Of a stretch of DNA of 45,686 bases, positions 34,042 through 40,317 are shown one piece after another. This DNA comes from Methylotenera sp. (GTDB lineage Bacteria; Pseudomonadota; Gammaproteobacteria; Burkholderiales; Methylophilaceae), in assembly GCA_020035195.1 (NCBI GenBank), contig JAIQBT010000058.1, forward strand, positions 1 to 45,686. Reading direction: 5' to 3'. The position numbers and the translations under genes are program-made. How positions within the stretch are numbered: position 1 is the stretch's first letter; each line of letters opens with the position of its first letter. The notes beneath the pieces are model-generated. The model did not search any database, was not told the DNA's origin, and was given only the letters and a program-made list of their open reading frames with translations.

Positions 34042-35295
34042 ATGAATTTATCCAACACAGCCTCCACCAGCTCGCACCATGCATGCCCTGCCTGCGGTCT
34101 GCTATGCGATGACTTAGTCGTCGACCCAACAAGCGGCTTGAGTCCTGCCACCCCTTGCAAAAAAGCCCAGCGCTTTTTTGCAGCCGCCTTAGTCGTCTCA
34201 AACAGCAGCCCTAGCTTGGCTGGTAAAGCCTGCGATTTAAACACGGCCGTGCAAGCCGCCGCTGACATTCTAAGCACTAGCCAACAAGCGCTGTTTGCTG
34301 GCTTAGGCACCGAAGTGCAAGGCATGCGCGCCCTCTTAAGCTTAGCCGAAAAATGCCAAGCCACACTGGACCACATGCACAGTGAGGCCAGCGTACGCAA
34401 CACCTTGGCCATGCAAAACAGCGGCTGGCAAACCACCACTTTAAGCGAAGTGAAGAATCGTGCCGACCTAATCGTGGCCATAGGCACAGACATCGTCAGC
34501 AGCCACCCGCGCTTTTTTGAAAAACTGGTGTGGAATGCAGACAGCTTATTCAATAAGGGCAAGCCCAGCGTCGTATACCTGGGCGTGGATAAGGCAGACA
34601 CGGCAGCCTTGGTCGTAGCCGCAGACCAGGCGCGGCTGCCAGAGATCTTAAATGCTCTTAATGCCCTAAGCCAGGCTGACAGTCGCTTGTCTAAACTGGA
34701 CGATACGGCCTTAATCGGCGGCGTGCCCTTGGCCTCCTTAAAGCGCATACTCGAAAAAATTCAGGCCGCCGAATACGCAGTGCTGGTCTGGTCTGCCAGC
34801 CAATTAGATTACCCGCACGCCGAACTGACCGTGCAAAGTATCACACAATGGATAGCCCAATTAAATGAAAGTAAACGGGTCGCCGGTTTAAGCCTAAACG
34901 CGGGCGATGGCGATATCAGCATTAACCAAACCTGCACCTGGCTGAGCGGCTATCCCAGCCGCAGTCGATTTTTAGCCGACCACCTTAGCTACGACACGCA
35001 GCAATTTTCCAGTGCCCAACAGCTTAAAAGTTGCGATGCCTTACTTTGGGTCAGCACCTTTAATGCGCATCAGCCACCTGCCTACGCTGGCCCCATCATT
35101 GCCATAGGCCACCCCAACACGCAGTTTGAGCGTCCACCCGAAGTGTTCATTCCGGTTGGCGTACCCGGGGTTGATAACACCGGCACACTCTTTAGGATGG
35201 ACGGTTCAATTGCCCTGCCACTAAAAAAATGTCGCGACAGCCACTTGCCGCGCTTGGACCACGTGATACGGCAAATAGAGGCGGCGCTCAATTGA
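34042..35295 (+). CDS. fhcB: Formyltransferase/hydrolase complex subunit FhcB (formylmethanofuran dehydrogenase subunit B-like)
   Basis: N-terminal ACPACGLLCDDLVV motif, FwdB/FmdB-like body; first gene of fhc operon. Confidence 0.88.
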   Translation: MNLSNTASTSSHHACPACGLLCDDLVVDPTSGLSPATPCKKAQRFFAAALVVSNSSPSLAGKACDLNTAVQAAADILSTSQQALFAGLGTEVQGMRALLSLAEKCQATLDHMHSEASVRNTLAMQNSGWQTTTLSEVKNRADLIVAIGTDIVSSHPRFFEKLVWNADSLFNKGKPSVVYLGVDKADTAALVVAADQARLPEILNALNALSQADSRLSKLDDTALIGGVPLASLKRILEKIQAAEYAVLVWSASQLDYPHAELTVQSITQWIAQLNESKRVAGLSLNAGDGDISINQTCTWLSGYPSRSRFLADHLSYDTQQFSSAQQLKSCDALLWVSTFNAHQPPAYAGPIIAIGHPNTQFERPPEVFIPVGVPGVDNTGTLFRMDGSIALPLKKCRDSHLPRLDHVIRQIEAALN

Positions 35296-36974
35296 TTATA
35301 CGGCTCAAAAATGCGCGGGTCTTTGATCCTACCCACAAAAAAGATGGCGTGGTAGAGGACATCTACATCAGCCAGGGCCGCATCGTGGCCCAACCATCCG
35401 ATGCCAGCAAAATAACTAGTAGCATGGACTTAAGCGGCAAAGTGGTGATGGCCGGCGCCATCGACATGCACAGCCACATAGGCGGTGGCAAAAGCAACAT
35501 TGCCCGCATGCTGCTGCCGGAGTTTCAAGCCAGTAAACACTACAGCGAGCCCGAGGCGCATGTGTGTTCCCCGCATTGCGGCCACCATGCCACGCCCAAC
35601 ACCACCGAGACTGGCTTTCGCTACATAGAAATGGGTTACACGGCCGCGTTTGAGCCGGCTTTAATGCCGGTTAACGCCAGGCAAGCGCACTTGGAAATGG
35701 CCGACACGCCCATGATAGATAAGGGCGCGTATGCCATGCTGGGCAACGACGATTACTTTTTACGCATGCTCGCCAGCCAACAAGATCAAAAAGCCATCAA
35801 CGATTACGTGGCCTGGATATTGCACAGCACCCAATCCATAGGCATTAAAGTGGTGAATCCGGGCGGCATCAATGCCTTTAAATTCAATCAACGCAAATTG
35901 GATTTGGACGAGAACAACCGCCACTACCAAGTCTCACCAAGGCAAATCTTATCGAGCTTAAGCCGTGCGGTGCACGAGCTGGGCATAGCCAAACCGCTGC
36001 ACGTGCATTGCAATAATTTGGGCGCCGCCGGTAATTTTCAAACTACGCTGGACACCATGAGTGCCTCCGATGGCTTGCCCATGCACTTAACCCATATCCA
36101 GTTTCACAGCTACGGTAAAGAAGGCGACAAGCAGTTTTCCTCGGCCGCGGCAGAAATTGCGGAAGCCTTAAATAAACACAAACACATCACCGCCGATGTT
36201 GGGCAGATCCTGTTTGGCCAAACCGTTACCGCTTCCGGCGACAGCATGGTGCAACAGCGCAACGCCCGCCATGCCAACCCAAAAAAGTCGGTCTTGATGG
36301 ACATAGAATGCGATGCCGGCTGCGGCGTTCTGCCATTTAAATACCGCGACCAAAACTACGTGAATGCCTTGCAATGGGCCATAGGCTTGGAGTTATTCTT
36401 ATCGGCGGACGACCCGTGGCGCATTTTCTTAACCACCGACCACCCAAATGGGGCGCCATTCACCAGCTACCCGCATTTAATTCGCTTATTGATGGACAAA
36501 CACTTTAGAAACGAGGCCTTTGCCAAGCTTAATTTTGACGCGCAAGCCATGAGCAATTTGCTCAGCTTAGACCGCGAATACAGCCTCTACGACATCGCCG
36601 TTATGACCCGCGCTGGCGCGGCTGGCTTGATAGGCTTGAACGACAGAGGCCATCTCGGCATAGGCGCCGCCGCCGACATCACAGTCTACACTGACCAAGC
36701 CGATCGCGAAGCCATGTTCAGCAAACCCGATTACGTCTTTAAGAACGGTGAATTAGTGGTCAAAGACGGCAAAGTGATTAAAGTCGTTTGGGGCGCCACC
36801 CACACCACCAAACCGGCATTTGATCTAGGCGTGGAAAAAGACTTGAGCGCCTATTTTGCCAAATACCAGACCATGCAATTGGCCAACTTTAAGATCAGCA
36901 ACGATGAAATAGCCGATGACGGCCGTGGTAGCATCGTGGTGCATAACAAGCAAGCGACTAGCCCACAGGCTTAA
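35292..36974 (+). CDS. fhcA: Formyltransferase/hydrolase complex subunit FhcA (formylmethanofuran dehydrogenase subunit A-like)
   Basis: IIRLKNARVFDPTHKKDGVVEDIYISQGRIV...AGAIDMHSHIGGGKSNIARMLLPE. TTG at 35292 in frame, overlapping fhcB stop (TTGA), fits the family N-terminus better than ORF start 35229. Confidence 0.93.
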   Translation: MIIRLKNARVFDPTHKKDGVVEDIYISQGRIVAQPSDASKITSSMDLSGKVVMAGAIDMHSHIGGGKSNIARMLLPEFQASKHYSEPEAHVCSPHCGHHATPNTTETGFRYIEMGYTAAFEPALMPVNARQAHLEMADTPMIDKGAYAMLGNDDYFLRMLASQQDQKAINDYVAWILHSTQSIGIKVVNPGGINAFKFNQRKLDLDENNRHYQVSPRQILSSLSRAVHELGIAKPLHVHCNNLGAAGNFQTTLDTMSASDGLPMHLTHIQFHSYGKEGDKQFSSAAAEIAEALNKHKHITADVGQILFGQTVTASGDSMVQQRNARHANPKKSVLMDIECDAGCGVLPFKYRDQNYVNALQWAIGLELFLSADDPWRIFLTTDHPNGAPFTSYPHLIRLLMDKHFRNEAFAKLNFDAQAMSNLLSLDREYSLYDIAVMTRAGAAGLIGLNDRGHLGIGAAADITVYTDQADREAMFSKPDYVFKNGELVVKDGKVIKVVWGATHTTKPAFDLGVEKDLSAYFAKYQTMQLANFKISNDEIADDGRGSIVVHNKQATSPQA

Positions 36975-36985
36975 GGAGAAGCAAC

Positions 36986-37645
36986 ATGAGTAAATTATAC
37001 GGCGAGCAACACCGCCTTATTCAAGATGCCTTTGGCACTCGCGGCATGGCCGATCGGGTGGAAGAATTGGTTTGCCGCAGCGAATTTGACGACGGTGCCA
37101 AAGGCTTTATCGAAAGCGTAAACATGTTTTTTTTATCCAGCATAGACCACCAAGGCCGTCCTACGGTTTCGTTTAAAGGCGGCGATGCGGGCTTTGTCAA
37201 AGTACTGGACAGCACCACCTTAATTTTTCCAAGCTACGACGGCAACGGCATGTTTTTCTCCATGGGCAACATCAGCACCAACCCGCAAGTAGGCTTGCTT
37301 TTCATCTCTTTTGAAACGCCTAATCGTTTGCGTGTACAAGGCAGCGCCAGCCTATCAAAAGACCCGGCTTTACTAGCGCATTATAAAGAAGCCGACTTCG
37401 TGGTCACAGTGAAGCTGTCTGAATTTTGGCAGAACTGCCCACGCTACATTCCTAAATACAAAAAGGTCCGCGATTCACGCTATGTGCCACGCGCGGATTG
37501 CGAAACCCCTTTGGCCGGCTGGAAACAAGTGGATTTGGTGCAAGACATTCTATTGCCAAGCGATGCAGAAAAAGCGCAAAAAGTCGGCATCATCCCCATC
37601 GAAACCTGGGTGGGCAAAATCATGACCGGCGATGAAACGGCTTAA
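36986..37645 (+). CDS. Pyridoxamine 5'-phosphate oxidase-type (FMN split-barrel) flavoprotein inside fhc operon
   Basis: SVNMFFLSSIDHQGRPTVSFKGGDAGFVKVLDSTTLIFPSYDGNGMFFSMGNISTNPQVGLLFI; AAGGAG upstream; 11-nt gap after fhcA. Confidence 0.85.
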   Translation: MSKLYGEQHRLIQDAFGTRGMADRVEELVCRSEFDDGAKGFIESVNMFFLSSIDHQGRPTVSFKGGDAGFVKVLDSTTLIFPSYDGNGMFFSMGNISTNPQVGLLFISFETPNRLRVQGSASLSKDPALLAHYKEADFVVTVKLSEFWQNCPRYIPKYKKVRDSRYVPRADCETPLAGWKQVDLVQDILLPSDAEKAQKVGIIPIETWVGKIMTGDETA

Positions 37646-37666
37646 GGCCAAACAGGTGCAAGCTAG

Positions 37667-38575
37667 ATGTTAATTAACGGGATACAGATAGACGACAGCT
37701 TCGCTGAAGCCTTCAACATGCGGGGCACGCGGGTCATCATTACCGCGCAAACGCTGACCTGGGCCTACCACGCAGCTAATGCCATGACAGGCTTTGCCAC
37801 CTCGGTGATAGGCTGCGGCGTAGAAGCGGGCATAGAAGGCGAATTGTCCGCAGAGCAAACCCCGGACGGCCGTCCGGGGTTAAGCGTCTTACTGTTCGCC
37901 ATGGGCAGCAAAGTGCTGATGCAACAACTGGAAACGCGCATGGGCCAATGCGTGCTGACCTGCCCCACAGCAGCGGCTTTTGCCGGCATAGCCAGCGACG
38001 AACCCATCAATTTAGGTAAAAATTTACGTTTCTTTGGCGACGGCTACCAAACCAGCAAACTGATAGGCGGTAAACGCTATTGGCGCATCCCGGTCATGGA
38101 CGGCGAATTTTTATGCGAAGAAAGCACAGGTATGGTGCGTGCCATCGGTGGGGGCAATTTCTTAATCCTTGCCACCTCGCAAAGCGCCGCTTTAGCCGCC
38201 GCCGAAGTGGCCGTGGCCGCCATGAAAAATCTGCCCAACATCATCATGCCGTTTCCGGGTGGCGTGGTCAGATCCGGCTCCAAAGTGGGCAGCCGTTACC
38301 AAAGCCTATTTGCCTCAACCAACGATGCTTTTTGCCCCACTTTAAAAGGCGTGACGCAAACCGAACTGTCGGCTGACATAGAAAGCGTGATGGAAATTGT
38401 CATCGACGGCTTAAGCTTTGACGACATTGCCTTAGCAATGCAGACCGGCATCGCCGCCATTTGCGCACTGGGCACAGGCAGTGGCGTTAAACGCATTTCT
38501 GCCGGCAATTACGGCGGCAAACTGGGTCCACACCACTTTAAATTGCACGCCATTATGGGGGGCAACCGCCCATGA
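37667..38575 (+). CDS. fhcD: Formylmethanofuran:H4MPT formyltransferase subunit FhcD (Ftr)
   Basis: INGIQIDDSFAEAFNMRGTRVIITAQTLTWAYHAANAMTGFATSVIGCGVEAGIEGEL...TPDGRPGLSVLLF. Confidence 0.96.
   Translation: MLINGIQIDDSFAEAFNMRGTRVIITAQTLTWAYHAANAMTGFATSVIGCGVEAGIEGELSAEQTPDGRPGLSVLLFAMGSKVLMQQLETRMGQCVLTCPTAAAFAGIASDEPINLGKNLRFFGDGYQTSKLIGGKRYWRIPVMDGEFLCEESTGMVRAIGGGNFLILATSQSAALAAAEVAVAAMKNLPNIIMPFPGGVVRSGSKVGSRYQSLFASTNDAFCPTLKGVTQTELSADIESVMEIVIDGLSFDDIALAMQTGIAAICALGTGSGVKRISAGNYGGKLGPHHFKLHAIMGGNRP
37858..37881. repeat. 24-bp perfect palindrome within fhcD
   Basis: AACCCCGGACGGCCGTCCGGGGTT read directly; equals its own reverse complement; encodes TPDGRPG(L). Confidence 0.97.
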
Positions 38576-39381
38576 GCGCGCTGACCTTTAGCTTAAAAAT
38601 ACCTTTGCAATTTGCCGTCAACTGCGCCGTGCTGAGCCCAGCTTATTTAGCCGGAAAATCCTTAGCGCAAATTGCCGCCCTAAGCATCGAGCACGGCAGA
38701 ACACGGATGCGCCTAGATCAAGTGTTCGTCATAAGCGGCCATGACACGCAAGACCTGCACATAAAAAACAGCAGCAGCCAACTTGATTACCTAGGCGCCA
38801 ACATGGGCAGCGGCAGCCTGCTGGTAGAAGGTGATGCAGGCATGTATTTGGGCTTTGGCATGAAAGGCGGCGAAGTGCATTGCCTAGGCAACACGAAAAG
38901 TTTTGCTGCCTGCAATATGCAAAATGGCCTACTGATCATAGACGGCAATACCGTCGATTTTTTAGCGGGCGCCTCAGCCGGTTTACGCAAAGGCATGGCC
39001 GGTGGCACGGTAGTGCTTAAAGGCAATGCCGGTGATCGCGTGGCAGACCAAATGCGCCGCGGCTTAGTGTTAATAGAAGGCAATGTTGGGGATTATTGCG
39101 GCAGCCGCATGATCGCAGGCACGGTAGGCGTGCTCGGCAACGTCGGTCTGTACGCAGGCTTTAGCATGCGCCGCGGCACCTTATTGTTTAGCCGTGAACC
39201 CCAACTGCATGCCACCATGCAAGCTTGTGGCAGCCACACCTTGCCTTTTCTTACATTGCTGCTTAAATCCTTTGCGCCCTATTCCACGCGCTTTGCCAAT
39301 TCAAACGCTCAACGCGTGAAACGCTGGTTGGGCGATGCCGCTAACAATGGCATGGGTGAAATTTTACTGATTAGCGATTAA
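38572..39381 (+). CDS. fhcC: Formyltransferase/hydrolase complex subunit FhcC (FwdC/GltS-alpha-like beta-helix)
   Basis: Repeated GxxGxxxG motifs (GMAGGTVVLKGNAGDRVADQMRRGLVLIEGNVGDYCGSRMIAGTVGVLGNVG); ATGA overlap with fhcD. Confidence 0.92.
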   Translation: MSALTFSLKIPLQFAVNCAVLSPAYLAGKSLAQIAALSIEHGRTRMRLDQVFVISGHDTQDLHIKNSSSQLDYLGANMGSGSLLVEGDAGMYLGFGMKGGEVHCLGNTKSFAACNMQNGLLIIDGNTVDFLAGASAGLRKGMAGGTVVLKGNAGDRVADQMRRGLVLIEGNVGDYCGSRMIAGTVGVLGNVGLYAGFSMRRGTLLFSREPQLHATMQACGSHTLPFLTLLLKSFAPYSTRFANSNAQRVKRWLGDAANNGMGEILLISD

Positions 39382-39385
39382 TGTC

Positions 39386-39417
39386 AGTCTGCGCGCGTCT
39401 TAACAGACTTGTTTTTT
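39386..39417 (+). terminator. Putative intrinsic terminator of fhc operon overlapping 3' end of convergent MASE1-like gene
   Basis: AGTCTG (39386-39391) / CAGACT (39404-39409), 12-nt loop, followed by TGTTTTTT. Confidence 0.55.
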
Positions 39418-39966
39418 GCCTAGCCAACTTAAGCATTTGAGTGCTTTCGAGACCAGTAAGAAAATAAGCAAGGTGCCAAGCATATCACCCATAAACATAG
39501 GAAAGAGGGCAGCGAAGAATTCCGCGGTGTTGGTGTAGAAAAAATAGCAATTGCTGAGCACGGCATTCATCAAGGCGCCTACTAAAGCAAACACCAGCAA
39601 TTGCCTAGCCGACAAACCTGCTAAAGATTTCGGTAGCGCAAAAAACCAGCGGCAGACCAATAAGGCCAGCATGGGCGACAGCGCCGAAATAGCCGACAAA
39701 CCAAAAACATAATGGCCCAATAGTGCTTCATTGGTTAAGGCAGAGCTGATAAATAGGCCTACTACACCTGACCACCCGAAAATAAACACAGCCATCATGC
39801 GTATGCCAGCAGGCAGGAACACCCAATAGACCCGTGGATTGTATTCAAAATAAGAAAAAGCCCATAGGCTAAGGTGGTAAAGCAACACCCAGACCAGTGT
39901 CACGCTCAGTACCTGAGCGAGCATGGTTTTAATAGCCCGGCGTGATGGCGTGCTGAAGTGCTGCAT
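39400..39966 (-). CDS. MASE1-like integral membrane sensory domain protein without output domain
   Basis: VYWVFLPAGIRMMAVFIFGWSGVVGLFI...LLVFALVGALMNAVLSNCYFFY...ALFPMFMGDMLGTLLIFLLV; 188 aa; ends after membrane module. Confidence 0.72.
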   Translation of the reverse strand: MQHFSTPSRRAIKTMLAQVLSVTLVWVLLYHLSLWAFSYFEYNPRVYWVFLPAGIRMMAVFIFGWSGVVGLFISSALTNEALLGHYVFGLSAISALSPMLALLVCRWFFALPKSLAGLSARQLLVFALVGALMNAVLSNCYFFYTNTAEFFAALFPMFMGDMLGTLLIFLLVSKALKCLSWLGKKQVC

Positions 39967-40317
39967 TTAGCTGTTGGCGGTTTGGCTGATGCATTTCTCT
40001 AGCATAGAGAAATACTGTTCAGATAATGGCGTATGCGTGATGTATTTAATGCGGTTATCCCGCTCGTCCACAGTCAAACTAAGAAAGCCTTTAATTCTCA
40101 GTGATTTTAAATGCCGGTGCACGGAACTGGGTGTCATGGCCACATTCGAATGCATGGTTTCAGAAACACTGAGGTTCTTATCGGCCTGCCATGATAAGGC
40201 GACGTAGTTTAATAAGCACTCTTCCATGGGGTTGAGGCAAGGAAAGGCAGTCAGCTCGCGTATGGCTTTAGCTAAGTTTAAGAACTTGATGTAACTGCTT
40301 GAGGATAGGGTATTCAT
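39967..40317 (-). CDS. Winged-helix (MarR-like) transcriptional regulator
   Basis: MTPSSVHRHLKSLRIKGFLSLTVDERDNRIKYITHTPLSEQYFSMLEKCI; stop codon directly abuts MASE1-like ATG (TAAATG). Confidence 0.75.
   Translation of the reverse strand: MNTLSSSSYIKFLNLAKAIRELTAFPCLNPMEECLLNYVALSWQADKNLSVSETMHSNVAMTPSSVHRHLKSLRIKGFLSLTVDERDNRIKYITHTPLSEQYFSMLEKCISQTANS

Follow-up and report, generated by a model that had tools for sequence, protein, structure and literature searches.

In the DNA of Methylotenera sp. analysed here (a stretch of 45,686 nucleotides, hereafter called the window), the fhc operon contains an additional gene for a pyridoxamine-phosphate-oxidase-like (PPOX-type) protein, so that the gene order reads fhcB-A-[PPOX]-D-C, with all genes on the forward strand (Table 1). 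In our favoured interpretation, to which we assign a probability of about 0.6, the gene for an FMN redox enzyme became lodged in the fhc operon once and is a selected, co-expressed and dispensable accessory, not a subunit of Fhc. The FhcABCD formyltransferase/hydrolase complex, which serves formaldehyde oxidation in these methanol-using bacteria, is composed of four subunits, and the first-pass annotation had rightly remarked that a flavoprotein is not one of them. The operon for the complex is described as fhcABCD only (PMC8141765), and no report of a PPOX insertion in it was found in the open-licence literature.

Table 1 Features of the fhc operon and the inserted gene (positions refer to the window)
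Feature	Position	Strand	Basis
fhcB	34042..35295	+	TIGR03129, 248 bits; under 327.8 cut-off
fhcA	35286..36974 (true start about 35290)	+	TIGR03121, 713.9 bits
fhcA-PPOX spacer, 11 nt	36975..36985	+	Shine-Dalgarno-like GGAG in sequence
PPOX-type (COG3576-like) FMN split-barrel gene, 219 aa	36986..37645	+	PF01243 54.4 bits; AF2; Foldseek
PPOX-fhcD spacer, 21 nt	37646..37666	+	sequence
fhcD (formyltransferase)	37667..38575	+	TIGR03119, 445.3 bits
fhcC	38572..39381	+	TIGR03122, 237.9 bits

The inserted reading frame is intact, with an ATG start and a TAA stop, and the position, length, spacers and fold class that had been assigned to it before are correct. The mechanically predicted reading frame of fhcA begins at position 35229, within fhcB and ahead of the true start. 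Promoter-like and terminator-like sites were no more frequent in the operon than in shuffled sequences. The operon is neighboured on the reverse strand by two genes (39400-39966 and 39967-40317) for proteins of 188 and 116 aa, which match neither Pfam nor PHROG and have relatives only in L101 among the loci searched. In the operons of loci L002-L042 and L101-L140, FhcB and FhcC form two rough divergence classes, about 55-65% identical to the window proteins in one and about 37-47% in the other, and FhcA and FhcD are near 80% identical to those of the window.

According to the structural model, the window protein belongs to the fold class of PNPOx-like FMN split barrels of the COG3576 type. It matches PF01243 (PNPOx_N) over residues 36-133, well above the cut-off of 28.1 bits, as do all 45 relatives, and it is the sole PF01243 protein found in its own genome (80.5% complete). 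A PDB search with the single sequence returned no match, and the best match in a profile search was COG3576 with the structure 2htd (E 3.9e-5). The AF2 model, built on the alignment of the 45 relatives, reached a pLDDT of 92.6, and Foldseek retrieved PNPOx-like folds with it, again with 2htd as the best (E 3e-9). The TM-score on the query is only about 0.45, as the matched structures contain nothing equivalent to the N-terminal or the C-terminal extension, and at this value the transfer of function from known split barrels is weak. Two regions lie outside the 2htd match, namely helices at the N-terminus (residues 7-29) and a helical tail at the C-terminus (residues 178-214). This helical pair, the tail and an NCPRYI motif following the barrel are the traits of the sub-branch, and the invariant positions include K64-G65-G66, G86-N87-G88-M89 and N150-C151-P152-R153-Y154. 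Family membership leads us to infer that the protein binds flavin in the form of FMN. As for the source of electrons, loci L229, L231 and L232 encode PNPOx-like barrels that are fused to a reductase module consisting of NAD-binding (FNR) and 2Fe-2S (Fer2) parts. The fusion barrels, which occur in other bacteria, carry an NCPxYI motif and are paralogous to the window barrel, a likeness which suggests that the stand-alone form draws its electrons from a separate reductase.

Other cofactors and functions known for this fold were weighed against the same data. F420, which the first-pass annotation had considered alongside flavin, is an unlikely cofactor because the gene for F420 synthesis, cofD, was not found in 52 genomes of the window's genus, and an F420-dependent PPOX (FDOR) enzyme was therefore rejected, since its host would have to make F420. 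A haem-binding or haem-degrading protein of the HutZ/HupZ kind comes to mind because the nearest folds include HupZ and HutZ, which also appear as weak profile matches. However, the sequence similarity is marginal (E 0.015-0.05) and the HutZ model is matched by just one of the 45 members, and weakly so; this candidate was dropped as very unlikely. The PNPOx-like protein might instead complete PLP synthesis in the Methylophilaceae in place of a missing PdxH. None of 187 genomes of the family contains PdxH (TIGR00558) above the cut-off, the window's own genome gives no match, and PdxJ is present in all 34 good genomes of the genus, with a strong PdxS match in only 4 of 52. On the other hand, G112, G114, G117, G123 and G124 possess PdxJ but neither a strong PdxS match nor a PF01243 protein. 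In addition, the window protein has PF01243 alone and lacks the C-terminal substrate domain PNP_phzG_C, and its hhalign alignment with E. coli PdxH extends over 62 columns only, in which the RIVLLK and SRKAHQ stretches are not kept. In view of the PdxJ genomes devoid of PF01243 and the weak, partial alignment, we reject PdxH replacement as a general role and strongly doubt it altogether.

The insertion is not restricted to the strain at hand, as a survey of fhc operons, proposed in the first-pass annotation, revealed. In the Methylophilaceae, fhcD was found in 136 of 187 genomes and the window PPOX query had matches in 118. The two genes adjoin each other in 51 of the 136 fhcD-bearing genomes, a count obtained by matching the fhcD table with the PPOX table by hand, and one decayed copy comes in addition. 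Loci from a separate collection agree with this survey. By group, the insertion is present in 40 of 52 genomes of the window's genus, 5 of 22 in g15 and 6 of 14 in g19 and in none of the remaining 48; gene order is identical in all carriers and the gaps mostly measure 1-50 nt. Within the genus it occurs in 5 of 12 genomes of up to 1.6 Mb compared with 35 of 40 larger ones (Fisher p 0.003, uncorrected for kinship). Note that three loci bear the titles Sulfuritalea (L002), Klebsiella pneumoniae (L051) and Desulfurellaceae (L054), with which the positions of their genes in the trees disagree; they are likely mislabelled MAGs.

The PPOX gene is under strong purifying selection. Its pairwise dN/dS values of 0.02-0.07 are close to those of fhcA and fhcD and rule out an artefactual open reading frame, and the insertion has been retained across distances at which dS is saturated. 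Together with the recurrence of the arrangement in 51 genomes, this selection places the insertion far beyond what chance would give. The window's nearest relatives G108, G112, G114, G123 and G124 have kept fhc with fhcA joined to fhcD, and neither PPOX nor any other PF01243 protein was found anywhere in these drafts (73-86% complete); despite their draft status, the empty fhcA-fhcD junctions were seen directly. A broken and decayed copy resides in the fhc operon of G125 (L070). Since many relatives live without the gene, its product is probably a passenger or a helper and not a part of Fhc. A strictly neutral passenger, whose position is a historical accident and which is kept only for the protein's own usefulness, would fit the stand-alone orthologues in unrelated contexts and the repeated changes between presence and absence, but 51 genomes have kept the gene at an identical joint, which points to some advantage of co-expression, and we regard such neutrality as highly improbable.

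In a tree of 89 PPOX proteins, the 44 fhc-linked copies form one cluster, interrupted only by two nested long-branch rows, and the stand-alone copies of the Methylophilaceae form their sister group. As the fhc-linked copies thus constitute essentially one clade, the insertion probably arose once. On a tree of FhcA and FhcD from 69 operons, PPOX presence and absence change 10 times, and at least 8 of these changes are forced by starred branches. In the window's nearest PPOX-less relatives, fhcA and fhcD are 3-32 nt apart; in several other PPOX-less operons, they overlap by 4 nt (ATGA) like those of the outer relatives. Judging from these differing junctions, the PPOX gene seems to have been deleted from some operons, and in others the ancestral junction may have survived or been brought back by exchange; the FhcA+FhcD tree and the junctions do not tell gains from losses. 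A recent transfer into the window was rejected, because nucleotide identity between the window and L002 is alike for PPOX (79%), fhcA (78%) and fhcD (77%). Sliding identity for the window and L107/L007 showed no local transfer tract.

The first-pass annotation had gone further and suggested that the protein may bind Fhc or act on the methylofuran/H4MPT branch. While the split barrel, its standing outside the known subunits and its occurrence beyond one strain held up, this functional link was not supported by the distribution. Intact PPOX orthologues are encoded by G083 (a single contig, 99% complete) and G092, both without fhcD, which agrees with a report that Methylophilaceae with small genomes lack the H4MPT pathway (PMC6794327). 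Outside the family, 20 of 26 carriers are without fhcD and 6 possess it. In 48 distinct fhcD loci there, no PPOX gene was seen within about 1.5 kb of fhcD, and fhcA neighbours fhcD in 45 of them; of 63 fhcD-bearing genomes, 27 contain a PPOX family match, adjacent to fhcD in none. An operonic link with fhc in other bacteria was also discarded, as in the one near case (G715) PPOX is 8.5 kb away from fhcD, beside an ilvC-like gene and on the strand opposite to pqq-like genes (named by eye). Away from fhc, no conserved partner genes common to different groups were found. In L058, proteins encoded beside PPOX look by eye like subunits of a nitrile hydratase. For a subunit of Fhc, co-occurrence with fhc across carriers would be expected; instead, some carriers lack fhcD, and some genomes with fhc lack PPOX.

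The same evidence bears on a helper confined to the Methylotenera/Methylophilus branch that keeps the redox state of H4MPT or methylofuran or repairs Fhc. The short gaps inside the operon, retention over dS-saturated distances and divergence of PPOX at the pace of its neighbours are all consistent with such a function. It is nevertheless unlikely, given close relatives that keep fhc without PPOX, orthologues in fhcD-less genomes and the lack of PPOX from every outside fhc locus examined. Still, the gene has stayed at one precise position for a long time under strong selection, which could signify a real functional tie to Fhc in these lineages. PPOX may have been recruited in this branch as a redox guardian of the methylofuran/H4MPT pathway, with the coenzyme or the active site of Fhc as its target, and the sisters without it may use an altered coenzyme chemistry or no longer need such a guardian; we consider this quite doubtful. 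The protein may also have a facultative role connected with C1 flux, or an Fhc-specific one, which we do not favour.

Under the accessory interpretation preferred here, PPOX would be a redox protein with an FMN-binding split barrel, belonging to the uncharacterised COG3576 / MSMEG_1061-like group. It would most likely function as a dimer and as a flavin reductase or oxidoreductase of general purpose whose substrate is a small molecule, and receive its electrons from a separate reductase of the NAD(P)H/2Fe-2S type. In the Methylotenera/Methylophilus branch, most likely on a single occasion, the gene would have become inserted between fhcA and fhcD. Selection would have kept it in many lineages, probably through useful co-expression with C1 metabolism, and it would have been recurrently absent or lost in others where fhc stays. 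A stable, selected insertion is documented inside a central C1 operon, and the 51 genomes that carry it, set beside the many relatives that do not, form a comparative set that can test whether operon membership reflects function. Operon position should not be read as subunit membership.

Among known systems, the four-subunit FhcABCD complex shares operon and strand with the window PPOX gene, but in the fhc loci examined outside the Methylophilaceae no comparable gene flanks fhcD. PdxH has PF01243 in common with the window protein and differs by its additional PNP_phzG_C domain. The closest curated family is TIGR04025 (MSMEG_1061/DR_2398 FMN-dependent PPOX-type flavoproteins), which is matched by all 45 aligned relatives; with 85.9 bits, under the cut-off of 170, the window protein falls outside this subfamily and is a distant relative of it, not a member. 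The structure 2htd (Lactobacillus delbrueckii LDB0262; COG3576, predicted flavin-nucleotide-binding) is a PNPOx-like split barrel, as is predicted for the window protein, but with 140 residues and about 21% identity it covers the barrel only and neither the helical pair nor the NCPRYI motif and C-terminal tail. The PNPOx-FNR-2Fe-2S fusions (L231 and L234 aligned) share about 30% identity across the barrel, with the N-terminal region and the NCPxYI motif included; unlike them, the window gene stands alone, and any reductase that serves it would be encoded at another locus.
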